37,261 nt of DNA, from the NCBI GenBank assembly GCA_015493765.1, contig WGCQ01000017.1, positions 1-37,261 of the forward strand. Reading direction: 5' to 3'. The notes beneath the pieces are model-generated. The model saw nothing but the letters and a program-made list of their open reading frames with translations, had not been told where the DNA came from and made no database searches. Numbering within the stretch: the stretch's first letter is position 1; every line of letters begins with the position of its first letter. This stretch comes from Deltaproteobacteria bacterium. Lineage in GTDB: Bacteria; Myxococcota_A; UBA9042; DTJE01; S145-11. Of the stretch, positions 2,384 through 15,059 are shown one piece after another. The translations under genes and the position numbers were made by a program.

Positions 2384-2668
2384 GTCCTCATGCCCCTGTC
2401 TTCCCGGGCGCGAGGCGGTGGAACGTGCGGGTGACAAACACGCGTGCATCCTCGAACAGGGAATACAGGATGGGGACATAGACCATGGTCAGGAAGGTGG
2501 AGACCATGAGGCCGCCGATTGCAACGATGGCCATGGGTGAGAGGCGCTCCAGGCCTATGGCCCATTCGAGGGCAATGGGGAGCATGCCCACGGAGGTGCC
2601 TACGGCTGTCATCAGGATCGGCCTGGTCCTGATGCGCACGGAACCGATCAGGGCGTCGTGCACGCTGC
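2384..2668. repeat. Long direct repeat (with 93-375) flanking the restriction-modification module
   Basis: This segment is the 3' end of the intact RND gene and is repeated in the same orientation at 93-375. The two copies enclose a module (410-2383) that holds only the methyltransferase and nuclease genes. The repeat begins 4 bases outside the RND stop codon in both copies, which fixes the right-hand junction near 2384. Confidence 0.85.
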
Positions 2669-5522
2669 TGCCTTGCTCGCGGGCCGTGGCAATGAAATCG
2701 ATCAGCAGGATCGAGTTTTTCACCACGATGCCGGCCAGCAGGATCATGCCCATCATGGAGGGCATGCACCCGTGCTTGCCCATGATCAGCATGCCCCAGG
2801 ATGCGCCGATCAGGGCCAGGGGGATCGCGGACATGATGGTCAGGGGATGGATGAACGACTTGAACGCGGGCACCAGGGAAAAATACAGCAGGATCAGGCC
2901 CAGTATCATTGCCGCGCCCAGCCTGCCAAAGGATTCCTTCATCTGCCGGATCTCGCCCTGGTCCGAAATCGTGTACCCGGGCGGCAGTTTCAAGCCGGCC
3001 AGCGCGGCCCGGACGTCCTCTTGCAGGTGGGTGATCGGCCGCCTGGACCGGTAGGCCTGGATGTCCAGGGTGCGCTGCAGGCCCTGGCGGGTGATCACCG
3101 AGGCTGTGGGCTGCATGGTGATTGTGCCCAACTGGGCCAGGGGCACGCTGCCGCGCGGGGTCTGGATCGGGTAGGTGTACAGTTGGGCCGCGTGCCTGCG
3201 CTGGAGACCGGGCAGTTGCACCCACACGCTCAGCCCGTCCTGGTTGGGCACGCGGAATATCGAACTGGGCATGCCGCGCACCGCGCCCGACAACTGGGCC
3301 GCCACCGCTGAGGGGGACACCTGGTACAGGGCCAGTTTTTCCGGGTCCGCCTTAAAACGCACCTCCTGGGAATCCAAGGTCCAGGAACGCGTGATCGACG
3401 TGGCCCCGCGCAGGTGCCTGCGCAGCCTGCGTACCACCCGGGCACCGATCCGGTCCAGCGTGGCGATGTCCGGCCCTGAGATCATCACGTCCACGGGCGC
3501 GCGTATGGACGACATGGGCGTGGCCCCGAAATCGAATACGTCCACGCTTTTCATGCCGGGGATGCGCCTGAATTTCGCGCGCAGTGCGTTTTCCACGTCC
3601 CAGATCGTGGCCTTTCGATGGAATCGGTCCTTCATGTGTATGGTCATCAGGCCCTGCTGCGCCAGGCGGCCGGAACCAAACGAAACCACCGCGGGTTCCG
3701 ACCCGATCACCGAGGACACGGATGTGACCTCGGGCCGCTGCATGGCGATTTTCTCCATTTTCGCCAGCACCTTTTCCGTGGCCGCAAGGGAGGTGTTTGC
3801 ATCCGTTTCGAAATTTACCTTGATGATGCCCGTGTCCATGGGCGGCATCAGGTCGCGGCCCACCAGGGGCATGATTTTAGCGGACGGGATGAACAAGGCT
3901 ATGGCGACCAGCAAAAACAACAGGCGGTGGCGCAGGGCCGTGTCCGTCAGGCGGACGTAAAAATCACGCAAGGGCTCCACGACCCACGCATCCACCTTGT
4001 AAACCATGCGCTCGAAGCGGTTGCGGCCACCGCCGCCCCTGCGTTTCAACAGCAGCGGCGCCAGCAGGGGTATCACCGTGACCGACACGATGTAGGACGA
4101 CACCAGGGCTATGACCAGGCTGACCGACAGGGGCCGCAGCACGGTCTGCACGAACCCGCCGATGAATATGATCGGCAGCAGCACCATCACGGTGGCGTAA
4201 GTGCCTGAAAATATGGCCAGCATCACCTCCTGGGTGCCGCCCACAACGGCCTGGTGCACGTCCCGCCCCACGTCGTGGTAGTGTCGCTCTATGTTTTCCA
4301 GCACCACGATCGCGTCGTCCAGCAGCATGCCCACCGCGATGATCACCGCGGTCAGCGTGACCATGTCGAATTCGTAGCCGATCAGCCACATCACGGCAAA
4401 GGTCAGCAGGTAGGTGAACGGGATCGATATGGCTGCCAGCAGCATGCCGCGCAAGTCCGCCAGGAACAGGAAGATCACCAGCACGGTCATCAACACCGCG
4501 TCGCGCAGCGCGTGCAGCATATTACCCACGGACAGGTTGATCAGGTCGCCCTGGGTGTCGGGAATAAAGAATTCTATTGCCGGGTAGTCGGCCTCCAGCC
4601 TGGGCAGTTGCGCGGACACGGCTGCAATGGTTTTCAGGGCATTGCCCGTGCTGGCCCTTTGGATGTTCACCGCGATTGCAGGTTTGCCGTTGCCGTGATA
4701 GGCGCTTTGGGGCTCGGCATCGGCCCTGCGTATCCGGGCCACGTCCCGCAAGTGTATGTCCCCGGTACCTCGGTGTGCCACCACGATGCGTCCCACGTCG
4801 GAAATGCGCTGGAATTCGCCGATCCGTTTCAACAGGAATTGCGAATCCGACGTGATCAGCAGGCCCACGGGCTGGTTTGCGTTGTAGGCCATCAGGGCAC
4901 GGCGCACCATGGGCGCACTCAGGTGGTATTGCTGCAACTTGTCCCTGTCCAGTTCCACCTTGATTTGGGGCTGGTGCGCGCCGAATACCTCGACATTGGC
5001 AACCTCCGGCAACTGCAACAGGCGTTCCTTTATCTGGTTTTCCGCGATCTGGCGTACCATGGACAGGTCCAGGGGCGTCCCCTTTTTGGGCCTCAGCGCC
5101 AGGGTCAGCACCGCGGGCGTGGCCGATGATATCTTGAATATCATGGGCGGCCGGATCCCCGCGGGCAGCAGGGCCTTGATCTTTTGCAATTCGTTGGACA
5201 CGTCAGTGGCCGCGGAATCCAGGCCCTTCGTGTACCTGAATTCCACCATCACGGCCGACACCTCGTCCTTGCTGACGGATGTGACCCGCCTGACCTGCTC
5301 GATGGTGTTCAGTTCCTTTTCAATGGGCCGGCTGACCTCGGACTCGACATCAGCGGCAGAGGCCCCGGGGTACACGGTGACCACCGCCACCTGCGGCCTT
5401 TCGGAGTCCGGGAACAAATTGACCGGTATCCGGTGATACCCCACGTAACCGATTACCGCGGCCAGCAGCACCAGGGATGTCACCAGGTGGGGCCGTTTCA
5501 GGTAGCTTTCAACGATGTTCAC
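2388..5522 (-). CDS. RND-family efflux pump, inner-membrane transporter (HAE-1/AcrB type)
   Basis: A 1044-residue proton-driven exporter, normal length for the family. It has an N-terminal membrane helix (residues ~10-30), a first periplasmic porter domain, a block of helices around 330-530, a second periplasmic domain, and a last helix block from ~850. The motif GMLLDDAIVVLENIERH in helix 4 carries the two Asp residues of the proton relay. The start ATG overlaps the stop of the adaptor gene (ATGA), so the two are translationally coupled. It works with the adaptor and outer-membrane channel encoded just upstream. Substrate is unknown; a TetR operator at the head of the operon suggests small toxic molecules. 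Its 3' end is duplicated beyond the restriction-modification genes, yet this copy is intact. Confidence 0.95.
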   Translation of the reverse strand: MNIVESYLKRPHLVTSLVLLAAVIGYVGYHRIPVNLFPDSERPQVAVVTVYPGASAADVESEVSRPIEKELNTIEQVRRVTSVSKDEVSAVMVEFRYTKGLDSAATDVSNELQKIKALLPAGIRPPMIFKISSATPAVLTLALRPKKGTPLDLSMVRQIAENQIKERLLQLPEVANVEVFGAHQPQIKVELDRDKLQQYHLSAPMVRRALMAYNANQPVGLLITSDSQFLLKRIGEFQRISDVGRIVVAHRGTGDIHLRDVARIRRADAEPQSAYHGNGKPAIAVNIQRASTGNALKTIAAVSAQLPRLEADYPAIEFFIPDTQGDLINLSVGNMLHALRDAVLMTVLVIFLFLADLRGMLLAAISIPFTYLLTFAVMWLIGYEFDMVTLTAVIIAVGMLLDDAIVVLENIERHYHDVGRDVHQAVVGGTQEVMLAIFSGTYATVMVLLPIIFIGGFVQTVLRPLSVSLVIALVSSYIVSVTVIPLLAPLLLKRRGGGGRNRFERMVYKVDAWVVEPLRDFYVRLTDTALRHRLLFLLVAIALFIPSAKIMPLVGRDLMPPMDTGIIKVNFETDANTSLAATEKVLAKMEKIAMQRPEVTSVSSVIGSEPAVVSFGSGRLAQQGLMTIHMKDRFHRKATIWDVENALRAKFRRIPGMKSVDVFDFGATPMSSIRAPVDVMISGPDIATLDRIGARVVRRLRRHLRGATSITRSWTLDSQEVRFKADPEKLALYQVSPSAVAAQLSGAVRGMPSSIFRVPNQDGLSVWVQLPGLQRRHAAQLYTYPIQTPRGSVPLAQLGTITMQPTASVITRQGLQRTLDIQAYRSRRPITHLQEDVRAALAGLKLPPGYTISDQGEIRQMKESFGRLGAAMILGLILLYFSLVPAFKSFIHPLTIMSAIPLALIGASWGMLIMGKHGCMPSMMGMILLAGIVVKNSILLIDFIATAREQGSSVHDALIGSVRIRTRPILMTAVGTSVGMLPIALEWAIGLERLSPMAIVAIGGLMVSTFLTMVYVPILYSLFEDARVFVTRTFHRLAPGKTGA

Positions 5523-6685
5523 TGCCCTGCCCTCCCCTGCTGTGCAGATGCGGATACCGTGCCCACGACCTCTGCCCGTTCGCCTTCGAACAGGGTCATC
5601 AACCGCGACGGGCGTCCTGTTACGACCAGGTCATTGGCCTGTATGCCGCGGCCCTGTATCACTGCGGCATCCAGCGACCTCCCCAGCACCTTCACCCGTG
5701 TCGGGTGCACCCTGCCGGCCCTTACCACGAACACGAAGCTGCCCTTTGCGCCCTCCAGCAATGCGTCCGCCGGGACTTTCAGGCCTTTCGCCCCCGCAAT
5801 GTGCAGGTCCACGCCCACTGGCGCGCCTGAAACGAATCCGGGCGGCGGCCGGTCCAGGTCCGCCTCGAAGGTTGTCAGGTGACTGCGGCCCATTGCCGGG
5901 AATACGCGGGACACGCGGGCGTTCACACTGCGTTGCTTGTCGTAAACCGTGACCTTCATCCCGACCCTCAGCGCAGTGAAATCATTGGCAGGCAGCGAGG
6001 CCCTGACCCTGATAGCCCCGGACCTGACGACCTTTAACACCGGCCTGCCCGGGGTTGCCAGGTCACCGGGGTCCTTCAGCCTGGCCGACACCACGCCGTC
6101 GAACGGGGCCTTCAGCCTGGTGTATCCCAGCCGGGTCACGGCCTGGTCCACGCGCAATTTTGCGACCTTCACCGCTGCCATGGCCGCCTGGTACCTGGCC
6201 GATGCCGCTGCCTCGGCCGCATTTGACCGGTCCCATTGTTCCTTGGAAATGGCCCGGGCCTTGTACAGTTTTTTGTCCCTGGCCGTGGCGTCACGCTGGG
6301 CCAGGAACGCGGTGTGGGCAGCCGCGGCATTCACCCGGGCCGCTGCCAGGCCTGACTTGGCCTGGTCAACCGCATCCCGGATCTCCCTGGGGTCCAGCAG
6401 GACCAGGACCTGCCCCTTTTTGACCCGGTCGCCTTCGCGGACCTTGACGGCCAGCACCTGGGCCATGATCCTGGGTGTCACCATGGATTCATCCGCCCCG
6501 ATGACCGTGCCCAGGACATGCCGGGTTTCGTAAACGCGACCGCTTGTCACCCGGGCCGCACGCACCGCGATTGGCAAGGTTTTCAGGGTGGGGGCGCTGT
6601 TTTTTTCACGCCTCCGTTTCACCACCACCAGCGCAAGCCCCGCAACGATCAGGACCGCCACCAGGCCCCATGCAATCTTTTTCAC
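5519..6685 (-). CDS. Efflux RND periplasmic adaptor (membrane fusion protein)
   Basis: A 388-residue HlyD/AcrA-type adaptor. It has one N-terminal membrane helix (residues ~5-22) followed by KRRREK, so it is anchored by a helix rather than by a lipid. Next come a barrel-sandwich half (VTPRIMAQVLAVKVREGDRVKKG) and a long Ala-rich coiled hairpin (residues ~115-190). The second sandwich half (LKAPFDGVV), a beta-barrel and a membrane-proximal domain complete it. It bridges the pump and the channel. The start overlaps the channel gene's stop by 4 bases and its stop overlaps the pump start by 4 bases. Confidence 0.95.
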   Translation of the reverse strand: MKKIAWGLVAVLIVAGLALVVVKRRREKNSAPTLKTLPIAVRAARVTSGRVYETRHVLGTVIGADESMVTPRIMAQVLAVKVREGDRVKKGQVLVLLDPREIRDAVDQAKSGLAAARVNAAAAHTAFLAQRDATARDKKLYKARAISKEQWDRSNAAEAAASARYQAAMAAVKVAKLRVDQAVTRLGYTRLKAPFDGVVSARLKDPGDLATPGRPVLKVVRSGAIRVRASLPANDFTALRVGMKVTVYDKQRSVNARVSRVFPAMGRSHLTTFEADLDRPPPGFVSGAPVGVDLHIAGAKGLKVPADALLEGAKGSFVFVVRAGRVHPTRVKVLGRSLDAAVIQGRGIQANDLVVTGRPSRLMTLFEGERAEVVGTVSASAQQGRAGQ

Positions 6686-7992
6686 CGGACCACCTCCTTT
6701 TCCACTGTCATGTTTATCCTTTCCGCTGCCGTGATGATGCTGGCCAGTGTCCTGGCCATTTCCGCATGTGCGCCCTCTTCGCGGGCCCGTGCACGCAGCA
6801 GGTCCTCGATGGTATCCGCGCCCGTGTCATAGCGGATCTGTTCGATGCGAGCGGCCTCGGTTGCAGCGGCCAGCCTGGCGCGCGCCGATTCGAGTCGGGA
6901 TTTGGCAGCCTTGAACGCGGCAACGGCATCCTTCAACCTGGCCCGGGCCTGTAAGTGGGCCCGTTTCAGGGCCGACATCGCGGCATACCGCTTCTGGCGC
7001 GCCGCTGCCAAGTCCGCAAAACGACTGCCTCCTGACAGGATCGGCAGGTCCATGCGTATGCCGATGCCCCACGTGTTCATGGGGTCGTTGGTGTCAGGGC
7101 CGTAATGCTGCATCCAGTCCGCAAAGGCTGAAAAGTGCGGGATAAACTCGCTGAGCACCAGGGCTGTTGCGCGATTGGCCTGCCGGAATGCCAGGCGCGC
7201 CCGGCGTACCTGGGAAATATCCTCCAACAGGGCATGCAAGGTCTTTTTATCGGCCTTTATGGCAGGCACGTGTTCCCTTTGCGGCGCAACCTGTATATCC
7301 CTGTCCGGGTCACGGCCCATCAATGCCATCAGCATGGCACCCACCCGGGTCCTCCTGGCCCGGACCTCGGCCAATTCGGCCTTTACCTGCTCCAGGGACT
7401 CCACCACCTTCAACCGGTCTATGTCCGGCCTCTTCCCGTCCTTGACCATCATGTCCAGGCGCTGCCTCGTCGTGTCAAGGGCCCGGATTTGCTGTTTGAG
7501 GGCCGTTATCACGGAATCCAGTGCCTGTGCCGCGGTGAACAGGGAAGTTACGTTGAACCGGATCGTCCAGCGCGTGCCCTCCACCAGGGCCCTTGCCTTT
7601 TGGGCCTCCAGCCTGGCTATGCGTACGCCCGAGTAGAGTTTTCCGCCCAGGTAGAGCGGTAATTTATAGACCACGCCGTAGTGGAACTGGTTTCGCTCGA
7701 ACGGCATGCCGCCGATCCCGCCGCTCATTAACTGTTTCGAGATGGGCCTCAACACCTGGGCATCGTTCAAAAACGAATACGTGGCAACCCCGCTGAGTTC
7801 GCCGAAATGGTGCCTGAACGCGGATTTTGCCTGCTGGGATGCGGATGCGGCCTTGTGTTCAAGGGCCTGTACGCCCGGGTTGTGCTGCATGGCCTCGTTG
7901 ATTGCGGTTTGAAGGTCAAGGGGCCTGGCCATGCCAGGGGTCGCCAGGCAAAACAGGCTGGCCGCGATGGCAGTAAAGGAAAATCGTTTCAT
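6682..7992 (-). CDS. TolC-family outer-membrane efflux channel
   Basis: A 436-residue outer-membrane factor. It has a Sec signal peptide (MKRFSFTAIAASL, probable cleavage after PGMA) and two long repeats of Ala-, Arg- and Gln-rich helices, typical of the TolC coiled tunnel (residues ~30-240 and ~260-430). The second repeat contains the family pattern LPILSGGSRFADLAAARQK, which precedes a long helix. The start is preceded by GGGAGA at good spacing. It follows tetR by 22 bases and overlaps the adaptor gene by 4, so the whole set is one operon. It provides the exit duct of the tripartite pump. Confidence 0.92.
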   Translation of the reverse strand: MKRFSFTAIAASLFCLATPGMARPLDLQTAINEAMQHNPGVQALEHKAASASQQAKSAFRHHFGELSGVATYSFLNDAQVLRPISKQLMSGGIGGMPFERNQFHYGVVYKLPLYLGGKLYSGVRIARLEAQKARALVEGTRWTIRFNVTSLFTAAQALDSVITALKQQIRALDTTRQRLDMMVKDGKRPDIDRLKVVESLEQVKAELAEVRARRTRVGAMLMALMGRDPDRDIQVAPQREHVPAIKADKKTLHALLEDISQVRRARLAFRQANRATALVLSEFIPHFSAFADWMQHYGPDTNDPMNTWGIGIRMDLPILSGGSRFADLAAARQKRYAAMSALKRAHLQARARLKDAVAAFKAAKSRLESARARLAAATEAARIEQIRYDTGADTIEDLLRARAREEGAHAEMARTLASIITAAERINMTVEKEVVR

Positions 7993-8014
7993 TGATGTCT
8001 CCCTGAGTTTGTCG

Positions 8015-8608
8015 TCAATCCGGTGTCAATCCTTCAACCATGAAAGGAAGCAACTGTTCCTGCACGCGTTTTTCAAACGCGGGTTCCGGGACCAGCCGGT
8101 GCCTGATCGCAAGGGCCGATGATGCCCCCATGATCATCAGGGCCATGCAGTCCGCCCGGATGTCCGTGGTTACCTGGCCCGCTTTTTGGCCCTGGCGTAT
8201 CAAGGCCTCTATGACCCCGAGGTATCGTTTCAGGCAGCGCTGCATCCGGTTGATCATCACGGGGTCCCTGGGCGCGGACGACTGGACCAGCAACAACAGG
8301 GGCAGGCTGTTGTGCTCTAAAATCAGCCTGGCGTGAAGCCGGGCGATTGCCAGCAGGCGGTCACGAACGGGAACCGATGCGTCCCGTGCCAGTTCTTCCA
8401 GTGGAAGGACCAGCATTTCTTCCAGCATGTCCATCAATCCCAGCAGCAATGCCTGCTTGTTTTCGAAGTGTCGATAGATCGCGGCTTCGGAAAAACCCAC
8501 GCGCTGGGCGATCTTTTTTATGGTCACCGATGCCAGGCCTTCCTGTTCGACCAGGTTCAATGTCTTTTCCAGGATCTCTTGCCTGCGCTGTCTTGTAATC
8601 CGTGTCAC
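8015..8608 (-). CDS. TetR-family transcriptional regulator of the efflux operon
   Basis: A 197-residue repressor starting at GTG (VTRITRQRRQEIL). I chose this start because GGAGG lies 5 bases upstream; a longer TTG-initiated form to 8662 is possible but has no ribosome site and would run through a strong hairpin. The N-terminal helix-turn-helix is clear: VTIKKIAQRVGFSEAAIYRHFENKQALL. The rest is a variable ligand-binding and dimer domain. It is the first gene of the operon, so it should control itself and the pump through the palindrome at 8687-8710. The inducer is unknown. Confidence 0.93.
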   Translation of the reverse strand: MTRITRQRRQEILEKTLNLVEQEGLASVTIKKIAQRVGFSEAAIYRHFENKQALLLGLMDMLEEMLVLPLEELARDASVPVRDRLLAIARLHARLILEHNSLPLLLLVQSSAPRDPVMINRMQRCLKRYLGVIEALIRQGQKAGQVTTDIRADCMALMIMGASSALAIRHRLVPEPAFEKRVQEQLLPFMVEGLTPD

Positions 8609-8623
8609 AGGGACCTCCGTGTG

Positions 8624-8680
8624 CCCGATTGCCGGGCCAAGTTCGGCAATCGGGTGCTGCAAGCGGCCGGTTCGCCGGCC
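8624..8680 (-). other. Two hairpins in the tetR leader
   Basis: A perfect 11-bp inverted repeat, CCCGATTGCCG (8624-8634) and its complement (8644-8654), has a 9-base loop. Beside it GGCCGG-TTCG-CCGGCC (8665-8680) forms a stem with a TTCG loop. Both lie in the transcribed leader, and the first ends just before the tetR ribosome site. They could affect mRNA stability or translation. No U-tract follows, so they are not classical terminators. Confidence 0.55.
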
Positions 8681-8686
8681 CGTAAA

Positions 8687-8710
8687 ATGTTAGTGAACGT
8701 TCACCAACAT
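8687..8710. promoter_or_regulatory. TetR operator for the efflux operon
   Basis: A 24-bp palindrome with one mismatched pair. Its centre is GTGAACGTTCAC and its ends are ATGTT and AACAT. It begins 8 bases downstream of the -10 element, so it would cover the transcription start of the tetR-led operon. Symmetry, size and place fit a TetR dimer site. Confidence 0.8.
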
Positions 8711-8718
8711 CGAAAGCG

Positions 8719-8747
8719 ACTATAAGAACGCATCGGTGCCCTGTCAA
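8719..8747 (-). promoter_or_regulatory. Sigma-70 promoter of the tetR-efflux operon
   Basis: TTGACA (8742-8747), a 17-base spacer, and TATAGT (8719-8724) on the minus strand. The -35 is perfect and the -10 has one change from consensus. The operator follows directly. Confidence 0.8.
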
Positions 8748-8793
8748 CCCGAAAAAATTGCGATGTTGGGGTTTATTGATCTTAGTCATACCG

Positions 8794-8815
8794 TATAACC
8801 GTTTAAACGGTTATA
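8794..8815. promoter_or_regulatory. Perfect 22-bp palindrome, copy 1 of a shared operator
   Basis: The 20-bp core ATAACCGTTTAAACGGTTAT is extended here by one more pair. The same core occurs at 11125-11144. The 30 bases to the left are also similar in both places (TTTATTGAT, TTA, TCAT at the same offsets). It lies 42 bases before the start of the interrupted thioredoxin-like gene and upstream of the DUF169 gene, and probably binds a dimeric regulator of those genes. The regulator is not identified. Confidence 0.7.
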
Positions 8816-8856
8816 TATGAATTGCTTGTGACCGCCATTGTCGAGGTATCGATTTG

Positions 8857-9306
8857 ATGGATTCAGGAAAGAAAAAACGGGTGGAAACGTCATTTGCCGC
8901 CCTGCAAAAGGCCGTAAAAGCACACCCGGGCATCACCATCCAAACCCAAATTACCGGACTAAATGCGGGAGTCGGGCACTGCAGGCGGCCCATCTACTTT
9001 GTCGTCTGCACCTGTTTGATGCTCGACGTACGGCTAGTACGCCTGCGCTCAAACAGGCTTAACTCCGCGTATCTGAACCACTTTCAGTGCCCTTTGTCCT
9101 CAGGTAATTTGGGCCAACGAATACGGATTGACGTCAACAGGCTGGCCGCTGTCAAGTACCAGGAAATGCATCCGATCATGGTGCTGCCCGCCATCTACCT
9201 GTTCGACGGGGCCAGTAACCTGGTCAAGATGTTGCAGGGCGAGGTTACCACGAAACAGGTCACTGACATCATCATGCCGGAAAGGCCGGGCCATGATAAA
9301 CCGTAA
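8857..9306 (+). pseudogene. Thioredoxin-like gene interrupted by a dispersed repeat
   Basis: The frame starting at ATG 8857 (MDSGKKKRVETSFAALQKAV) is open to 9306. Its middle (8945-9113) is a dispersed repeat that occurs twice more in the window. After the repeat the protein looks real and thioredoxin-like: IRIDVNRLAAVKYQ, then a likely cis-Pro segment MVLPAIYLFDGASNLVKMLQGE, matching beta3 to beta5 of the fold. The CxxC half is not visible, so it was lost or replaced. GAGGTATCG precedes the start. The DUF169 gene follows 14 bases after the stop behind its own strong ribosome site, so this is probably the first gene of that operon. Whether the chimera is still translated is unknown. Confidence 0.55.
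8945..9113 (+). repeat. Dispersed hairpin repeat, family 1, copy 1
   Basis: The unit is bounded by inverted ends CCCAAATTACC and GGTAATTTGGG. Inside, CCTGTTTGA and TCAAACAGG form a perfect 9-bp stem enclosing TGCTCGAC and CCTGCGC, with a second small stem CGTAC/GTACG. Copies are at 24611-24793 (+) and 28340-28555 (-). It contains the only CTAG I could find in the window (9032-9035). Confidence 0.75.
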
Positions 9307-9320
9307 AAAGGAGGTGTGTC

Positions 9321-10079
9321 ATGTGCGAAAAGAAAATCGGACCACAGGCAAGGGTGCTAAAAAACATCCTGAACCTGGACAGTGAGCCGGTGGCCGTGTA
9401 CCTGGTGCAAAGGGATTCACCGACACGGGATTTTGCTGATTTCCGGGCGGTGGAACGGCATCGTTACTGCCAGGCGATCATGCGCGCCAGGCGGGGCGAA
9501 AAGGTCCTGTTGGAGCAGGACCAGGTTGCCTGTCCGGCTGCACGCAGGGCTTTCGGCTTCGCTGAACTGCCGCCTGCCCTGGCCAGCGGCGAGGGCCTGG
9601 TCGGGTTTGGCATTGCACGAACCCCGGATGTCGGCCGACGCATGTTCGAAAACATGCCGGTGTTGCCCCGGGGCGCGGTGTCCGCAATTGCCGCATGCCC
9701 GCTGGAGCAGGCCCCGCGCCTGCCCGACGTGGTGATAATCGAGGACCGGCCGGAACGCCTGATGTGGCTGTTGCTGGCCGACCTGAACCTGTCCGAAGGA
9801 CGGCGGCGGACCAGTGATACCGCGGTGCTGCAGGCCACCTGCGTGGACGCCACCATAGTACCTTACACTCAGGATCGCCTGAATTACACCATGGGTTGTT
9901 ATGGGTGCCGCGAGGCCACGGACCTGGAACCAAACGAAACCGTGCTGGGTTTCCCGGGCCGGATGCTGGCCCCCCTGGTGGACATGCTGGAATACCTGAG
10001 GGAACGGGCCATCCCGCGTTCCCAGGCCAAGGCCCCCTGGCAGCAATTGCATAACCGACTGGCCGGCGGCAAGGCGTAA
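9321..10079 (+). CDS. DUF169 family protein
   Basis: A 252-residue cytoplasmic protein of the DUF169 family, common in anaerobes and methanogens, of unknown biochemical function. Family-like stretches are the start (LNLDSEPVAVYLV), HRYCQAIMRARRGEKVLLE with a conserved Cys, CPAARRAFGF, and GCYGCREATDL near residues 192-202. The several conserved Cys residues suggest metal or redox chemistry, but this is inference. A strong AAGGAGG lies before the ATG. It follows the broken thioredoxin-like gene and precedes an FmdE-like secreted protein; the shared operator at 8794 suggests joint control with the downstream FmdE gene. Confidence 0.85.
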   Translation: MCEKKIGPQARVLKNILNLDSEPVAVYLVQRDSPTRDFADFRAVERHRYCQAIMRARRGEKVLLEQDQVACPAARRAFGFAELPPALASGEGLVGFGIARTPDVGRRMFENMPVLPRGAVSAIAACPLEQAPRLPDVVIIEDRPERLMWLLLADLNLSEGRRRTSDTAVLQATCVDATIVPYTQDRLNYTMGCYGCREATDLEPNETVLGFPGRMLAPLVDMLEYLRERAIPRSQAKAPWQQLHNRLAGGKA

Positions 10080-10100
10080 GATTGTTTACCCTGGGCCGGG

Positions 10101-10116
10101 CCGGTAATTTGGGTTT
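10101..10116. repeat. Right partner of a perfect 16-bp inverted repeat (8942-8957)
   Basis: CCGGTAATTTGGGTTT is the exact reverse complement of 8942-8957. The pair encloses the family-1 repeat and the DUF169 gene (about 1.17 kb). The same motif forms the ends of the short elements at 8945-9113 and 18913-18987, so it may be a solo repeat end rather than a border of one mobile unit. Confidence 0.6.
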
Positions 10117-10122
10117 TAGCTC

Positions 10123-10151
10123 TTGACTATATCTGCATATGCGGTTATAAG
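10123..10151 (+). promoter_or_regulatory. Sigma-70 promoter of the secreted FmdE-like gene
   Basis: TTGACT (10123-10128), a 17-base spacer and TATAAG (10146-10151). The gene start at 10222 would have a leader of about 65 bases. The spacer holds GCGGTTATAAG, which resembles half of the 20-bp palindrome found at 8795 and 11125. Confidence 0.7.
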
Positions 10152-10221
10152 TATAAGGCTTTGGCTTATTCCCTGTCTATTGGGACAAAGAACGTTTGTT
10201 TTTCAACTCATGGAGGTACTC

Positions 10222-10971
10222 ATGAACACATTTCAAAAGAATCACTATCCGCCCAGATCCGCAAAACAGCGCAAAGGACTCCCGGTGATCGGTATGCCAG
10301 GAGGTGTATTCAACCGGCTGGGGCTCCTGGCCGTAGGGATAATCATGCTGTTCGGCATGAATGCCAGCGCACAAACGAGCGTCTATAAAAAGGCCGGCGT
10401 AATCCGCATCAGGGACCACAAGGCCACCATGGCCGGGACCGTCAGAAAGGATGGCGACCTTTTCAAGATCACCCTGATGGATATCGGGAAATTCGACGGT
10501 CATATCTGCGGCTGCAACACCGCTGGGTTTTTAATCACGAAAAAGGTCCTTGGCATGCTGTTCCCCAATGAAATACCGGTAAGGAATACGATTCGGGTGA
10601 AAATATCCGGATACAACCGCGATTTGATCGACGCTATTTCCTATATCACGGGCATACGCCTGAATACAGGCGCTTACACGCATGCCCCTAATGAGTTGAG
10701 CGTGGACAAATCCTTGGCCGGCCGTGCAGGGACCACGGTATTGATTTTCGAGCGCAAAGACAATGGCAAAAAGGTAAAAGTAGTGCTGGACAAGGGACGC
10801 TTGCTGAGCAAACACGAAATGTCCGTGATCAAGGCCGTCAAGCCAAAACTAATCCGGCACAAGGCAACCGCCGCAGAAAAAAAACAGTATGCGGAAGTTA
10901 CCCGTGCAATCGTTGAAAAAGAAATTACGAATATGCCTAAGGGCGCGATTACTTTTCAGGAGATAAAATAA
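10222..10971 (+). CDS. Secreted FmdE-like protein
   Basis: A 249-residue protein with a long basic N-region, a hydrophobic stretch (LGLLAVGIIMLFGM, residues ~36-49) and a likely signal cleavage at NASA-QT, so it is probably periplasmic. The mature part has the FmdE-type signature GHxCG (DGHICGCNTAGFLI), then ITGIRLNTGAYTH, like the core of formylmethanofuran dehydrogenase subunit E relatives. These proteins bind metal through His and Cys; their role outside methanogens is not known. The start at ATG 10222 is fixed by GGAGGT. The first codons and ribosome site (ATGGAGGTA-TCATGAACAC) are nearly identical to those of the cytoplasmic FmdE gene at 11595, which suggests duplication of the initiation region. 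Confidence 0.72.
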   Translation: MNTFQKNHYPPRSAKQRKGLPVIGMPGGVFNRLGLLAVGIIMLFGMNASAQTSVYKKAGVIRIRDHKATMAGTVRKDGDLFKITLMDIGKFDGHICGCNTAGFLITKKVLGMLFPNEIPVRNTIRVKISGYNRDLIDAISYITGIRLNTGAYTHAPNELSVDKSLAGRAGTTVLIFERKDNGKKVKVVLDKGRLLSKHEMSVIKAVKPKLIRHKATAAEKKQYAEVTRAIVEKEITNMPKGAITFQEIK

Positions 10972-11124
10972 TCCCTTTGGGATGCTCCAAGAGCAGTTCA
11001 TTTTCACAGTAATATTCCCTCCGCACCTGTCCTTATGATGACGTAAGCGACGTAATCCCCGATTCGTAATGGAATTTGCGATTCCTTTCCAAATACAGGT
11101 ATTTATTGATTTTAATCATTATGC

Positions 11125-11144
11125 ATAACCGTTTAAACGGTTAT
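11125..11144. promoter_or_regulatory. Perfect 20-bp palindrome, copy 2 of a shared operator
   Basis: ATAACCGTTTAAACGGTTAT, identical to the core at 8795-8814, with a similar left flank. TATAGT just to its right could be a -10 element. It lies 40 bases before a well-spaced AGGAGG and an ATG at 11184 and about 450 bases before the FmdE gene. Confidence 0.7.
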
Positions 11145-11183
11145 AGTGTCTTGTGTGACACGCTTTTTTATTAGGAGGTGTGC

Positions 11184-11576
11184 ATGCCATGGTTTGCCGG
11201 AACCAACAGTAAAGAAATCGATTGGAGTTCGTCAATTAGGTCTCTCCGGCTTGCGCAGGACCTACGCGGACAAAAACGTACGGGCCGGGGTAAAGGCGGG
11301 CCTGGTACGAAATGCCCGGGACGAACAGGCAGGCGAAAAAAGGGTGTTGATTTGATGGATTTGCCATTAAATCGTAGGGGCGAGTTCCAAACCAGCCCTT
11401 TTTGGCGATGTAATGTAAGTTCTTGGAAAAAATGGAATAATATCGTTGCCTGCGAGCCTCCGGCGGTACACGCAGGCGCGGCCACCTGCGCTCCAATAAG
11501 AGACTATTTCAAGGGCCTCAAGGACGCCGGCGATCCCTGGAGGGGCTTTTTCAACAGCCAAAAATTTGTGTATTAA
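11184..11576 (+). pseudogene. Small open frame behind the palindrome, apparently overrun by a repeat
   Basis: ATG 11184 has AGGAGG 5 bases upstream, so the start looks genuine (MPWFAGTNSKEIDW). From about 11300 the frame runs through a family-2 intergenic repeat and the amino-acid sequence becomes low in quality. I recognise no family. The likeliest reading is the first codons of a lost gene fused to repeat sequence, the same pattern seen at 8857 behind the other copy of the palindrome. It may instead be a real small protein. Confidence 0.35.
11300..11560 (+). repeat. Dispersed intergenic repeat, family 2, copy 1
   Basis: Marked by GGGTGTTGATTTGATGG (from 11342), TAGGGGCGAGTTCCAAACCAGCCC (11376 on) and, at the right, GACGCCGGCGATCCCTGGAGG (from 11522). 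Related words recur at 14850-14960, 17690-17830 and, reversed, at 36960-37030. There is no coding content I trust. Confidence 0.5.
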
Positions 11577-11594
11577 TTTTTTATGGAGGTATTC

Positions 11595-12215
11595 ATGAAC
11601 ACTTTTGAGAAAAACCTAACACGTTACATGCCGCCGGACTGGGGATTCCAGTTTCACGGACATCGGTGTCCTTTCATGCCCCTGGGCTATCGCATGGGCA
11701 TCATGGCCCTGGAGCGCATGGGCCTGGAAAGGGAAAAGAACCACGGACTGCACGTATTCCCTGAACTGGGCGAAGGCCATCCCCAGGCATGCCTGGTGGA
11801 CGGCATCCAGATCGCAACGGGAGCGACCCTGGGCAAGACCCTGGTGGAAAAGACGTTCTGGGGCAAAATGGCGGCCACATTCTGGTACAAGGACAAGACC
11901 CCGATCCGTTTCCTGATGAAACCGGATTTCCTGGACGGATTTGCGCCATTCGAGTTCTTTAAGTACCGCAAGCGGGGCGTGGAACCATCGGATATTCCGC
12001 CGAAGGTCACGCAGGAGGTGCTGGACTGGACACTTTCCGTGCCCGACGAGGATGTTTACGAGATCACGGAACGCCCGGACTTCGTTTACACGCCGCCGCG
12101 CGGCTCATTCAACAAGACAAAGTGCAGCATCTGCGGTGAATACGTATTCGAGCGTTACGTCAGGATCCTGGACGGTAAGCCCGTGTGCATCCCGTGTTCG
12201 GGTTATCGGAAATAA
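11595..12215 (+). CDS. FmdE family protein with C-terminal zinc ribbon
   Basis: A 206-residue cytoplasmic protein. Residues ~16-30 hold the family signature FHGHRCPFMPLGYRMG, followed by GEGHPQACLVDGIQ and ATGATLGKT, typical of formylmethanofuran dehydrogenase subunit E-like proteins. The C-terminus carries two CxxC pairs (KCSICGEYVFE and CIPCSG) that form a zinc ribbon of the TraR/DksA type often fused to FmdE. The function is unknown outside methanogens; in sulfate reducers these proteins sit near molybdenum or tungsten enzymes, but no such enzyme is encoded here. Start ATG 11595 follows GGAGGT; an in-frame ATG at 11583 overlaps the ribosome site. It probably depends on the palindrome at 11125. 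Confidence 0.85.
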   Translation: MNTFEKNLTRYMPPDWGFQFHGHRCPFMPLGYRMGIMALERMGLEREKNHGLHVFPELGEGHPQACLVDGIQIATGATLGKTLVEKTFWGKMAATFWYKDKTPIRFLMKPDFLDGFAPFEFFKYRKRGVEPSDIPPKVTQEVLDWTLSVPDEDVYEITERPDFVYTPPRGSFNKTKCSICGEYVFERYVRILDGKPVCIPCSGYRK

Positions 12216-12393
12216 CGCTGGAAGGGATTATACCACGGGTATGACGAGGGCAAAGGGTCCGGGATCCCGGACCATCAGTCCGAAACAGTCCAGAAACCTG
12301 GACCGCAGCATTATGAGCCGACATGCATTAATAACGCATTTTCAATGAGTTACACGCTTGAATCCCATGGCACGATCTTTGCATTCAGATTGT

Positions 12394-12540
12394 TGTCCCT
12401 TTCGGGACATTTGTCAGGCCCACCGCGGAGGGCGATAGAGCGCTCGGGACTTGTTCCCCGGACTTTGATTGGTGGTGGCGTGGTCTGTCCGCAGGCCACA
12501 GGACCCGGTCGGCGTGTCGGCGGGGGAGGGCCCTGGCGTC
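12394..12540 (+). ncRNA. Candidate structured RNA or repeat, copy A
   Basis: This segment aligns along its length with the reverse strand of 20570-20710. Both end in CGGCGGGGGAGGGCCC. Three hairpins occupy the same places: GTCCC-TTTC-GGGAC at 12395, GGGA-CTTGT-TCCC near 12447-12459, and GTGGTCTG-TCCG-CAGGCCAC at 12480-12499. The last is CAGGTCTG-CCCC-CAGACCTG in the other copy, so two pairs are swapped and pairing is kept. This copy ends 99 bases before arsR and could be its leader, but the other copy precedes no gene in this orientation. Strand is therefore uncertain. I recognise no known RNA family. Confidence 0.4.
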
Positions 12541-12548
12541 GGCCACCG

Positions 12549-12568
12549 GTCCACCGGCCCGGGTGGAC
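12549..12568. other. GTCCACC/GGTGGAC hairpin before arsR
   Basis: A perfect 7-bp stem with loop GGCCCG is followed by TATAAAAAA. There is no U-run after the stem on either strand, so it is not a terminator. TATAAA may be the -10 of the ars promoter. I found no convincing ArsR operator palindrome between here and the arsR start. Confidence 0.35.
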
Positions 12569-12639
12569 TATAAAAAATCGCGCTCCCGTGGCATATTAGG
12601 ATTATCCCCGTCTTGCGAAAGGCGGGCAAGGAGGTGAAC

Positions 12640-13002
12640 ATGGAAGGCATGGCAAGGTTGTTTAAGGCCCTGGCCGACGAAACCCGGGTCCGAATCATGG
12701 CCCTGATCCTGGAACATGGTGAACTGTGCGTCTGCGACTGCATGTACATCCTGCAAATCAGCCAGTCCAAGGCATCCAGGCACCTGCGTTACCTGGCAAA
12801 TGCCGGCCTGCTGAGGCCGCGCAGGGATGCGGTGTGGATGTACTATGACGTGCCAAAGGAACCCGACCCGGACCGCGACAAACTGCTGGACAGCCTGCGA
12901 GGCTGGATTACGCCCGAAAGGGACCCGGAAATTGCTGTCCGGGTCAAAAAATGGCTGGAATTGAAAGCAAATGGCCAGTTGTCATGCAGCGTAGACGCTT
13001 AG
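12640..13002 (+). CDS. arsR: ArsR-family arsenic-responsive repressor
   Basis: A 120-residue winged-helix repressor. ELCVCDC (residues ~28-34) is the arsenite-sensing Cys-x-Cys site at the start of the recognition region, as in E. coli ArsR (ELCVCDL), here with a third Cys. The recognition helix follows ([20 protein letters not shown]). The start was chosen for AAGGAGG at 7 bases. It is the first gene of an arsenic operon: acr3 follows after 4 bases. Arsenite binding should release it from the promoter upstream and turn on efflux. Confidence 0.95.
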
Positions 13003-13006
13003 GCCC

Positions 13007-14080
13007 ATGAATACGGCACACCAAAACAAGCAGACCGTTGTAAAAAGGCTTTCCCTGTTGGACCGCTACCTGACCCTGTGGATTTTCCTGGCCATGGCCG
13101 TGGGTATCCTGGCAGGCTGGAAGGTCCCGGGGGCGGTCGAATTCATCAACCGCTTCAATGCGGGTACCACGTCGATCCCCATTGCCATCGGCCTGGTCTT
13201 CATGATGTATCCGCCCTTGGCAAAGGTGCGTTACGAGGAACTGGGCAGGGTGTTTCGCCATCGCCGCGTACTGGTGCTGTCCCTGCTCCAGAACTGGATA
13301 ATAGGTCCAATCCTGATGTTCGCCTTGGCCGTGCTCTTCCTGCATGACAAGCCGCAGTACATGGTTGGTCTGATCATGATCGGCCTGGCCCGCTGCATCG
13401 CCATGGTAATAGTGTGGAACGACCTGGCCGAGGGGGACACGGAATACGCCGCTGGCCTGGTTGCTTTCAATTCGATATTCCAGGTGTTGTTTTATTCCGT
13501 GTACGCCTATGTTTTTATAACTGTCCTGCCTTCACTGATGGGCATGAAGGGCGCGGTTGTCCACATCAGCATGGCCGAGATCGCCAAAAGCGTGTTCATC
13601 TACCTGGGGATCCCGTTTATCGCGGGTTTTCTGACCCGGTTCATACTGGTACGAATAAAAGACAAGGAATGGTATCACGCACGGTTCGTCCCCAAAATCA
13701 ACCCGATTACACTAATCGCCTTGTTGTTTACCATTGTGGTGATGTTTTCCTTGAAAGGAAAAGCCATCGTACAGTTGCCAATGGACGTGGTCCGCATTGC
13801 GATCCCGTTACTGGCTTACTTTATCATCATGTTTCTTGTATCTTTCTGGATGGGCAAGCGGGCCGGCGCAACCTATCCTCAAACCACAACACTCGCATTT
13901 ACCGCGGCATCCAATAATTTCGAACTGGCAATAGCCGTGGCAGTGGCCACATTCACGATCAGCAGTGGTGCGGCCTTTGCTGCTGTCATAGGACCATTGA
14001 TCGAGGTGCCTGTGATGATCGGGTTGGTCAATGTATCGCTGTTTTTCAAACAGCGTTATTTCCACGGGGCAACAAAATGA
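13007..14080 (+). CDS. acr3: ACR3-family arsenite efflux transporter
   Basis: A 357-residue inner-membrane protein with about 10 hydrophobic helices. The family signatures are clear: [17 protein letters not shown] in the first third and [20 protein letters not shown] with the conserved Cys that is essential for transport. It exports arsenite, driven by the proton gradient. It is tightly coupled to arsR (4-base gap) and to the arsenate reductase gene (4-base ATGA overlap). Length matches bacterial ACR3 proteins. Confidence 0.96.
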
Positions 14081-14772
14081 CACACGTACTGGAATTCCTG
14101 CATTACCCGGACGACCCTGATTCGGAGGTGGCCATGGAAATGCTCACCGAGGCCGTCATGACCATCACATCGGGGATTGAGATCCGGAAAAGAATCGTCA
14201 GGCCTGGGTCTTTATGCTGCGGCCATACCATGGAAATCCGCATCAACGGCAAAAGGGTCCGTGACGTGGCAACAGGGCCACCGGTCCCGGGAAATTTCGT
14301 AAACTGCGAGGTGGGCGACCTGCCTCCATGCTGGGCCGTGGAAGCCGCGATACTGAACGCAATCAAGCCGAGCGGCATCCTGTTTTTGTGCGTGGCAAAT
14401 TCTGCCCGCAGCCAACTGGCCGAAGGCATTGCGCGTTCCATGGCACCTGGTGACGTAAAGGTCTTTTCCGCTGGCTCCGCACCGACCGTCCTGCGTGAAG
14501 AGGTCGTCCGGGTCCTGGCGGAAATCGGTATAGATGCATCATCCCAATACGCAAAACCGATCGACGCAATCCCAACGGACCAGGTGGACGCGGTTATAAC
14601 GGTATGCGGCGAGGAGGTCTGTCCGGTGTGGCTGCATCCCGCTGCAAGGGTGCACTGGGCCATGCCCGACCCGGCCGCGGTCCAGGGGCCGGACCGCATC
14701 CGCGCATTTCGTGAAGTACGCAATGAACTCCTGATGCGAATCCGCAGGGTATTTCAGGACTGGCATGCCTAA
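14077..14772 (+). CDS. arsC: Arsenate reductase with N-terminal thioredoxin-like domain
   Basis: A 231-residue fusion. Residues ~105-231 are a low-molecular-weight-phosphatase-type arsenate reductase: the P-loop CVANSARS, the redox pair in [10 protein letters not shown] and the HWAMPDPA segment match thioredoxin-coupled ArsC of the pI258 type. It reduces arsenate to arsenite for export by Acr3. Residues 1-95 form a separate domain starting [17 protein letters not shown] and containing [16 protein letters not shown], which resembles the thioredoxin-like family with a SPT-x-R-x-NG motif found near mercury and arsenic genes. It has adjacent Cys residues rather than CxxC. It might recycle the reductase or bind the metalloid; that is inference. 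Confidence 0.88.
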
Positions 14773-14844
14773 CGAACACCACCAACAACCATCGGCAAAC
14801 GGCTGACAGCGGCCGTAATCCTGAACCTGTTTGTCACTGCCGCC

Positions 14845-14960
14845 GGGATGAGGCTGTTGATTTGATGGCAAATTCAGGGCGGGTTTAGAACCAGTACCCA
14901 CAAATATCGTGTAAATTCAGTGAGTTACATTGCGAGGCAAATTATCTGTCAAAATTAAGG
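14845..14960 (+). repeat. Dispersed intergenic repeat, family 2, copy 2
   Basis: GTTGATTTGATGG followed by GGGCGGGTTTAGAACCAGTACCC parallels the copy at 11342-11400. A shorter word, GGTGTTGATTTAAGAGATTTC, recurs at 15021-15042. The rest of the gap between arsC and cydB (14773-15059) shows no gene. GGTC-TTTC-GACC at 15047-15058 is a small hairpin by the cydB stop. Confidence 0.4.
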
Positions 14961-15059
14961 ACAAAAGGCGCTGTAACAGGTTCGGATACGTGGAATTAAG
15001 CCCGTGAGCGCATGTCTTCCGATGGTGTTGATTTAAGAGATTTCGGGTCTTTCGACCAA

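Follow-up and report, generated by a model that had tools for sequence, protein, structure and literature searches.

Two neighbouring groups of genes in a deltaproteobacterial genome, coding notably for DUF169 and FmdE proteins, are preceded by the same perfect palindrome, ATAACCGTTTAAACGGTTAT, which raises the question of which regulator recognises it and to which response these genes belong. Within the window, i.e., the 37,261-nucleotide stretch that was analysed as a whole, exact copies are located at 8795–8814 and 11125–11144, both in intergenic regions, and their left flanks share TTATTGATNTTANTCAT, which ends 5 bases before the palindrome. The two copies and the similar flanks reported in the initial annotation were thus verified, and we agree that the palindrome marks out a small group of local DUF169 and FmdE genes. 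The additional statement that no regulator is encoded next to it proved wrong: an arsR gene (12640–13002) follows the second copy at a distance of 1.5 kb, together with an arsenite pump and an arsenate reductase.

No third copy was detected in the window when up to three mismatches were allowed (0 expected from 100 shuffles), and none was found at the same tolerance elsewhere in the 3.57 Mb genome (96.75% complete). This restriction to two copies supports the earlier proposal of an operator and not of a dispersed repeat. With the central six letters left free and up to two arm mismatches, 16 sites were retrieved in the genome, compared to 5 for a reversed-pattern control. Three of them are in the window (8795, 11125, and 10129), all intergenic provided that the FmdE start at 10222 is correct. 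Twelve of the 13 others could be assigned to loci and all 12 lie within open reading frames, so that many intergenic copies unrelated to genes, the mark of a repeat, were not seen. In a matrix scan of the window, the two perfect sites scored 33.3 and the site at 10129–10148 was third-best with 23.0, followed by 15.3 for the next. This third site had been described as a half-site within a promoter (10123–10151). The promoter is confirmed, but the site looks like a weaker full operator, being a degenerate copy of the palindrome that retains 14 of 20 letters (by eye) and differs at 2 of the 14 arm letters. All features of the locus are listed in Table 1.

Table 1. Genes, predicted operators and promoter elements of the locus (window coordinates).
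Feature	Position	Strand	Remarks
FNR/CRP-type box 1, TTGATCTTAGTCAT	8776–8789	+	8/10 letters of TTGATN4ATCAA; centre at -41.5 of the start inferred from the -10
Predicted ArsR operator 1, perfect palindrome	8795–8814	.	Occupies the place of the promoter spacer
-10 element TATATA	8812–8817	+	Overlaps operator 1
First gene behind operator 1, 149 aa	8857–9306	+	Start ATG 8857 by eye from GAGG ribosome site
DUF169 (PF02596) gene, arsenic-linked subfamily	9321–10079	+	
-35 element TTGACT, third promoter	10123–10128	+	
Predicted ArsR operator 3, degenerate	10129–10148	.	Same spacer position
-10 element TATAAG	10146–10151	+	Overlaps operator 3
FmdE-family (PF02663) gene, hydrophobic N-terminus	10222–10971	+	Product probably exported (by eye)
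FNR/CRP-type box 2, TTGATTTTAATCAT	11106–11119	+	9/10 letters; centre at -41.5
Predicted ArsR operator 2, perfect palindrome	11125–11144	.	
-10 element TATAGT	11142–11147	+	Overlaps operator 2
Dispersed repeat	11329–11559	.	44 genome matches, the window's own copy counted
FmdE (PF02663) gene, C-terminal zinc finger	11595–12215	+	HxHxC + Cys metal ligands kept; start ATG 11595 by eye
arsR, ArsR/SmtB repressor	12640–13002	+	ELCVCDC metal motif; recognition helix
ACR3 arsenite efflux transporter	13007–14080	+	TIGR00832 above cut-off
LMWP-type arsenate reductase	14077–14772	+	Extra N-terminal domain

The three genes coming directly after the second FmdE gene (12640, 13007, and 14077) have the composition of an ars operon, with arsR, ACR3 and an arsenate reductase in one row. 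The product of arsR matches the ArsR/SmtB family (E-value of 2e-24) and presents the ELCVC motif, which binds As(III). The ACR3 protein reaches 451 bits against TIGR00832 (cut-off 283); the arsenate reductase is below its NCBIfam cut-off (88.8 vs. 174.3) and its LMWPc domain passes the Pfam cut-off. The reductase also harbors an additional N-terminal domain of ~95 residues, and the ars island of another genome, G214, encodes a full-length protein similar to it (44% identity).

The initial annotation suggested searching for the regulator by co-occurrence, and the same palindrome was indeed found at arsR-ACR3 promoters in other genomes. A scan of the genome collection returned the exact palindrome at four other loci: two of them (L006 and L007) are directly upstream of arsR-ACR3 in genomes unrelated to that of the window, one (L005) is upstream of a pair encoding a thioredoxin-like protein and an ArsP-type permease, and one (L004) is within a coding frame. 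Within the class (52 genomes examined), ATAACCG-N6-CGGTTAT occurs only in the genome of the window and in G010 and G011, both of which carry it directly upstream of arsR-ACR3. A molybdate or tungstate operator, an idea prompted by the FmdE annotation, was dropped because the exact palindrome is present in arsR-ACR3 promoters; the literature on the tungstate regulator yielded nothing useful.

ArsR relatives were also gathered from 377 genomes by protein similarity alone, and in the 29 loci scored (L010–L038) the 20-mer most similar to the window palindrome, which served as sole query, was located by its 14 arm letters. In 21 of 29 loci, this best 20-mer is at most 200 bp upstream of arsR, compared to 3.2 expected from locus length. 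ArsRs with a recognition helix of the window type mostly exhibit 11–14 arm matches out of 14, with the exceptions of L011 and L012 (9 each) and of the window's own arsR (7), and those with proline-type helices (QPNAS/QPTAS-type) exhibit 7–9; L006 and L007 also figure in this comparison and, having been found via the palindrome, are non-independent. The palindrome hence resembles an ordinary ArsR box and is a candidate binding site of the ArsR encoded at 12640–13002.

The immediate 5' region of the window arsR presents no recognisable operator (best 7/14 arm letters), which could speak for the operator of another regulator, either a second ArsR/SmtB protein or the TetR-type regulator encoded at 8015–8662, with arsR being close by coincidence. 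The genome encodes a second, weaker ArsR-family match and the TetR gene is divergent from operator 1. We nevertheless consider this very unlikely, since the same palindrome occurs at arsR-ACR3 promoters of unrelated genomes, where it tracks the ArsR recognition helix, and since the TetR gene has a palindrome-like site of its own near 8690. This near-perfect palindrome, GTTAGTGAACGTTCACCAAC (8690–8710, by eye), lies between the minus-strand TetR-type gene and operator 1, by a strong minus-strand promoter (8747–8719, TTGACA-17-TATAGT), and probably serves as operator for the TetR/RND efflux unit (2388–8662).

The palindromes of the window are precisely positioned within promoters. In 13 of the 17 arsR promoters with at least 11 arm matches, TTG opens the hexamer immediately preceding the operator, which therefore constitutes exactly the 17-bp spacer, its last letters forming the -10 element, and all three window sites keep this register. 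The promoter at 10129 is sigma-70-like (TTGACT-17-TATAAG), its spacer and -10 being the degenerate palindrome; at the promoters of 8795 and 11125, the -35 matches at 1/6 and 2/6 letters, respectively. This geometry also bears on the idea of a dispersed repeat, or of a hairpin in the transcript acting as terminator or attenuator, as might be proposed from the listing of 11125–11144 as a hairpin by a terminator scan and from the dispersed repeat located close by (11329–11559). Such an explanation is hardly credible, given that the genome holds two copies only, that the repeat excludes the palindrome, and that the palindrome is upstream of the inferred start and therefore not transcribed. An RNA element was searched in Rfam for positions 8000–15000 with E-values up to 1, and no match was obtained. 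The repeat itself is located between operator 2 and FmdE, and several of its 44-base pieces are common to many contigs. Because it underlies the open reading frame at 11178–11576, the latter was rejected and is probably not a gene.

Both promoters with a perfect operator carry another element, absent from the initial annotation, namely a putative box, TTGATNTTANTCAT, whose centre lies 41.5 bp upstream of the inferred start. TTGATN4ATCAA is the FNR/CRP box, and a centre at -41.5 is the position of class II activation. The match amounts to 8/10 and 9/10 letters at these two promoters only, the best of 17 other promoters reaching 7/10. A box within one mismatch is not rare in the window (1.14 expected). 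One of the two perfect-operator promoters may be a copy of the other, and the box is therefore counted as a single observation with good geometry. A perfect TTGATCCAAATCAA is found on contig 273 of this genome (G000), between a CRP/FNR-type gene and an FmdE paralogue, and a perfect TTGATN4ATCAA holds the same place in four genomes including this one (the others at L076, L079, and L082). In total, 4 of the 12 FmdE promoters tested have a perfect box, and FmdE promoters outside CRP-FmdE modules (L080, L095, L096, L077, and others) showed no good box. Perfect FNR boxes followed by TAT gave five matches in the own genome, and the loci L098, L100, and L102 were uninformative. The region on contig 273 (L087, 4444–7557) comprises the CRP/FNR-type gene, the FmdE paralogue, a TauE/SafE permease and an exported protein, a module that recurs across the phylum; three TTGAT-like boxes are present between its first two genes.

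The gene content offers a line of evidence that does not depend on the operator. Neither Pfam nor NCBIfam gave a match for the gene that comes first after operator 1, and the C-terminal part of its product looks like a thioredoxin fold (by eye). The DUF169 protein has a single strong relative (56%) among 356 genomes of its phylum; it is encoded in G214, in the row arsR-ACR3-arsM-arsC-arsD-...-DUF169-...-ArsP_1. In a second phylum-level group (around G377; 395 genomes), matches to DUF169 were obtained in 185 genomes; only four of these matches are close relatives (50–52%), and the next is at 33%. The row in G510 reads DUF169-TauE-FmdE-FmdE..ACR3..arsC, plus ArsP_1 and arsM; the neighbours are ArsP_1 and an ACR3-like protein below the NCBIfam cut-off in G473 and G536, and ArsP_1 and an ArsR-family gene in G624. 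All five close relatives (about 50–56% identity), from two phylum-level groups, are thus found by ArsP-type or other arsenic genes, with undisputed ars genes in G214 and G510 only, the assignment of G473, G536, and G624 relying on ArsP_1, which includes other kinds of permeases as well (the ArsP_1 assignment in G473 and G510 came from tblastn and NCBIfam relatives and not from a Pfam scan). None of the 36 remote DUF169 loci had ACR3, arsC, ArsP, arsM, or arsD nearby, and one had a weak arsR match. Under a random split, such a distribution has a chance of ~1 in 749,000 by our own arithmetic, but the close members are related, and the figure therefore marks a subfamily and not independent events. 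The DUF169 protein of the window belongs to this subfamily by its identity (at least ~50%), by its ars or ArsP-type neighbours and by its cysteines, as Cys50, 71, 174, 193, and 196 are invariant in all six close members, its own sequence included. No operator of the palindrome type was found at the DUF169 islands L142–L145, so that the arsenic link there comes from gene neighbourhood only. At L146, an FmdE relative comes immediately after a more distant DUF169 gene (~32%) and the surroundings are free of ars genes, so the pairing of DUF169 with FmdE may predate the link to arsenic. Plasmids gave a single distant DUF169 match, in an unannotated stretch. Our literature search found no paper joining DUF169 with arsenic. 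In the sections covered of two studies, a list of Desulfovibrio genes that confer high fitness under nitrate when interrupted includes a DUF169 gene (Dde_0597) next to Dde_0598, a gene of the TauE/SafE type (PMC4001038), and another DUF169 gene appears in a table of a selenium study (PMC5322559).

The FmdE protein encoded at 11595 passes the Pfam gathering score with its HxHxC + Cys site present, and has nine strong relatives besides itself in the 356 genomes, including the paralogue in its own genome. Arsenic-type genes are found near FmdE in G197 (arsR-ACR3-FmdE-TSUP) and G132 (arsC-CRP-FmdE-TSUP), and ArsP-type permeases in G214 and G079. Beyond these 356 genomes, FmdE has arsenic neighbours in G510 and is beside arsA, arsD, ACR3, and arsC on a plasmid of Citrobacter amalonaticus; on plasmids of Citrobacter freundii and Sulfuricella, its neighbours are TauE/SafE genes, with no ars pump nearby. 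The exported FmdE (10222) has four weak relatives only in the 356 genomes. One microbial-mat study reportedly has both FmdE and arsenic. Most FmdE relatives sit in the CRP/FNR-FmdE-TauE/SafE module, many of them without ars genes, most DUF169 proteins are encoded away from ars genes, and FmdE owes its name to a molybdenum enzyme operon. ArsR might hence bind at this locus while DUF169 and FmdE have a role in molybdenum/tungsten or sulfur chemistry and adjoin the ars genes by chance. This deserves consideration but seems unlikely, as the subfamily of the window accompanies ArsP-type or other arsenic genes in each of its five relatives across two phylum-level groups, and as the predicted operators would let the repressor of the ars genes also control those of the window. 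The evidence suggests instead that DUF169 and FmdE belong to the arsenic response.

Operator identity by comparison, promoter geometry and genomic association form the computed basis from which we infer the following mechanism. ArsR would cover the 17-bp spacer and the -10 of the promoters at 8795, 10129, and 11125, excluding RNA polymerase, and derepression would follow when As(III) on the ELCVCDC motif frees ArsR from its operator. An activator would be required at 8795 and 11125 because these promoters have almost no -35 and a box at -41.5; both would be active only in the presence of a class II FNR/CRP-type activator and of arsenic. The third promoter (10129) would combine its near-consensus -35 with a weaker operator. 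The promoter at 11125 probably drives FmdE and, since arsR is without an operator of its own, would read on into arsR-ACR3-arsC, across a dispersed repeat (11329–11559) that may be an insertion. DUF169 and FmdE would then function as accessory members of the arsenic response. We give a probability of about 0.9 to this account as a whole, i.e., ArsR operators at three promoters, two of them also activator-dependent, read-through, and DUF169 and FmdE in the arsenic response.

More tentatively, and at slightly less than even odds, the distinct DUF169 subfamily and its partner FmdE could represent an unrecognised part of anaerobic arsenic detoxification, with a two-input promoter combining an FNR-type activator and ArsR release. 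As an example within this same tentative proposal, they might provide a thiol/metal-site protein that acts on trivalent, methylated or thio-arsenic together with exporters of the ArsP or TauE/SafE type.

Several components have counterparts in known systems. As in ars operons under an ArsR/SmtB autorepressor (NF033788, TIGR00832), an ELCVC-type ArsR, ACR3 and an arsenate reductase are encoded in a row and a palindromic operator is placed in the promoter, whereas the perfect operators here front FmdE and the unit formed by DUF169 and the preceding gene instead of arsR, and the operator in this lineage is AACCG-N6-CGGTT. ArsR of Agrobacterium 5A controls genes beyond the ars operon, according to the sections covered of PMC7965956. 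The present case is similar in having targets outside the classical ars set, but these are DUF169 and FmdE genes, and the predicted operators are perfect, promoter-positioned palindromes. The putative box at -41.5 and the poor -35 would recall FNR/CRP class II promoters, from which the present ones, with their putative activator, differ by the predicted ArsR operator in the spacer. Finally, the FmdE of the window aligns to the PF02663 structure 2gvi (PMC2954224; PDB 2gvi, 2glz), with HxHxC + Cys and the C-terminal zinc finger, and the sections covered of that paper propose no arsenic role. The arsenic link of DUF169 and FmdE appears to be new, the operator itself being ordinary.

An operator shared with promoters of arsenic pumps elsewhere gives DUF169 and FmdE a condition in which to be tested, namely arsenite, probably without oxygen. 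The same arsenic condition is predicted independently of the operator by the neighbourhood of the close DUF169 relatives. If true, the composite promoter would be a natural two-input arsenic sensor.
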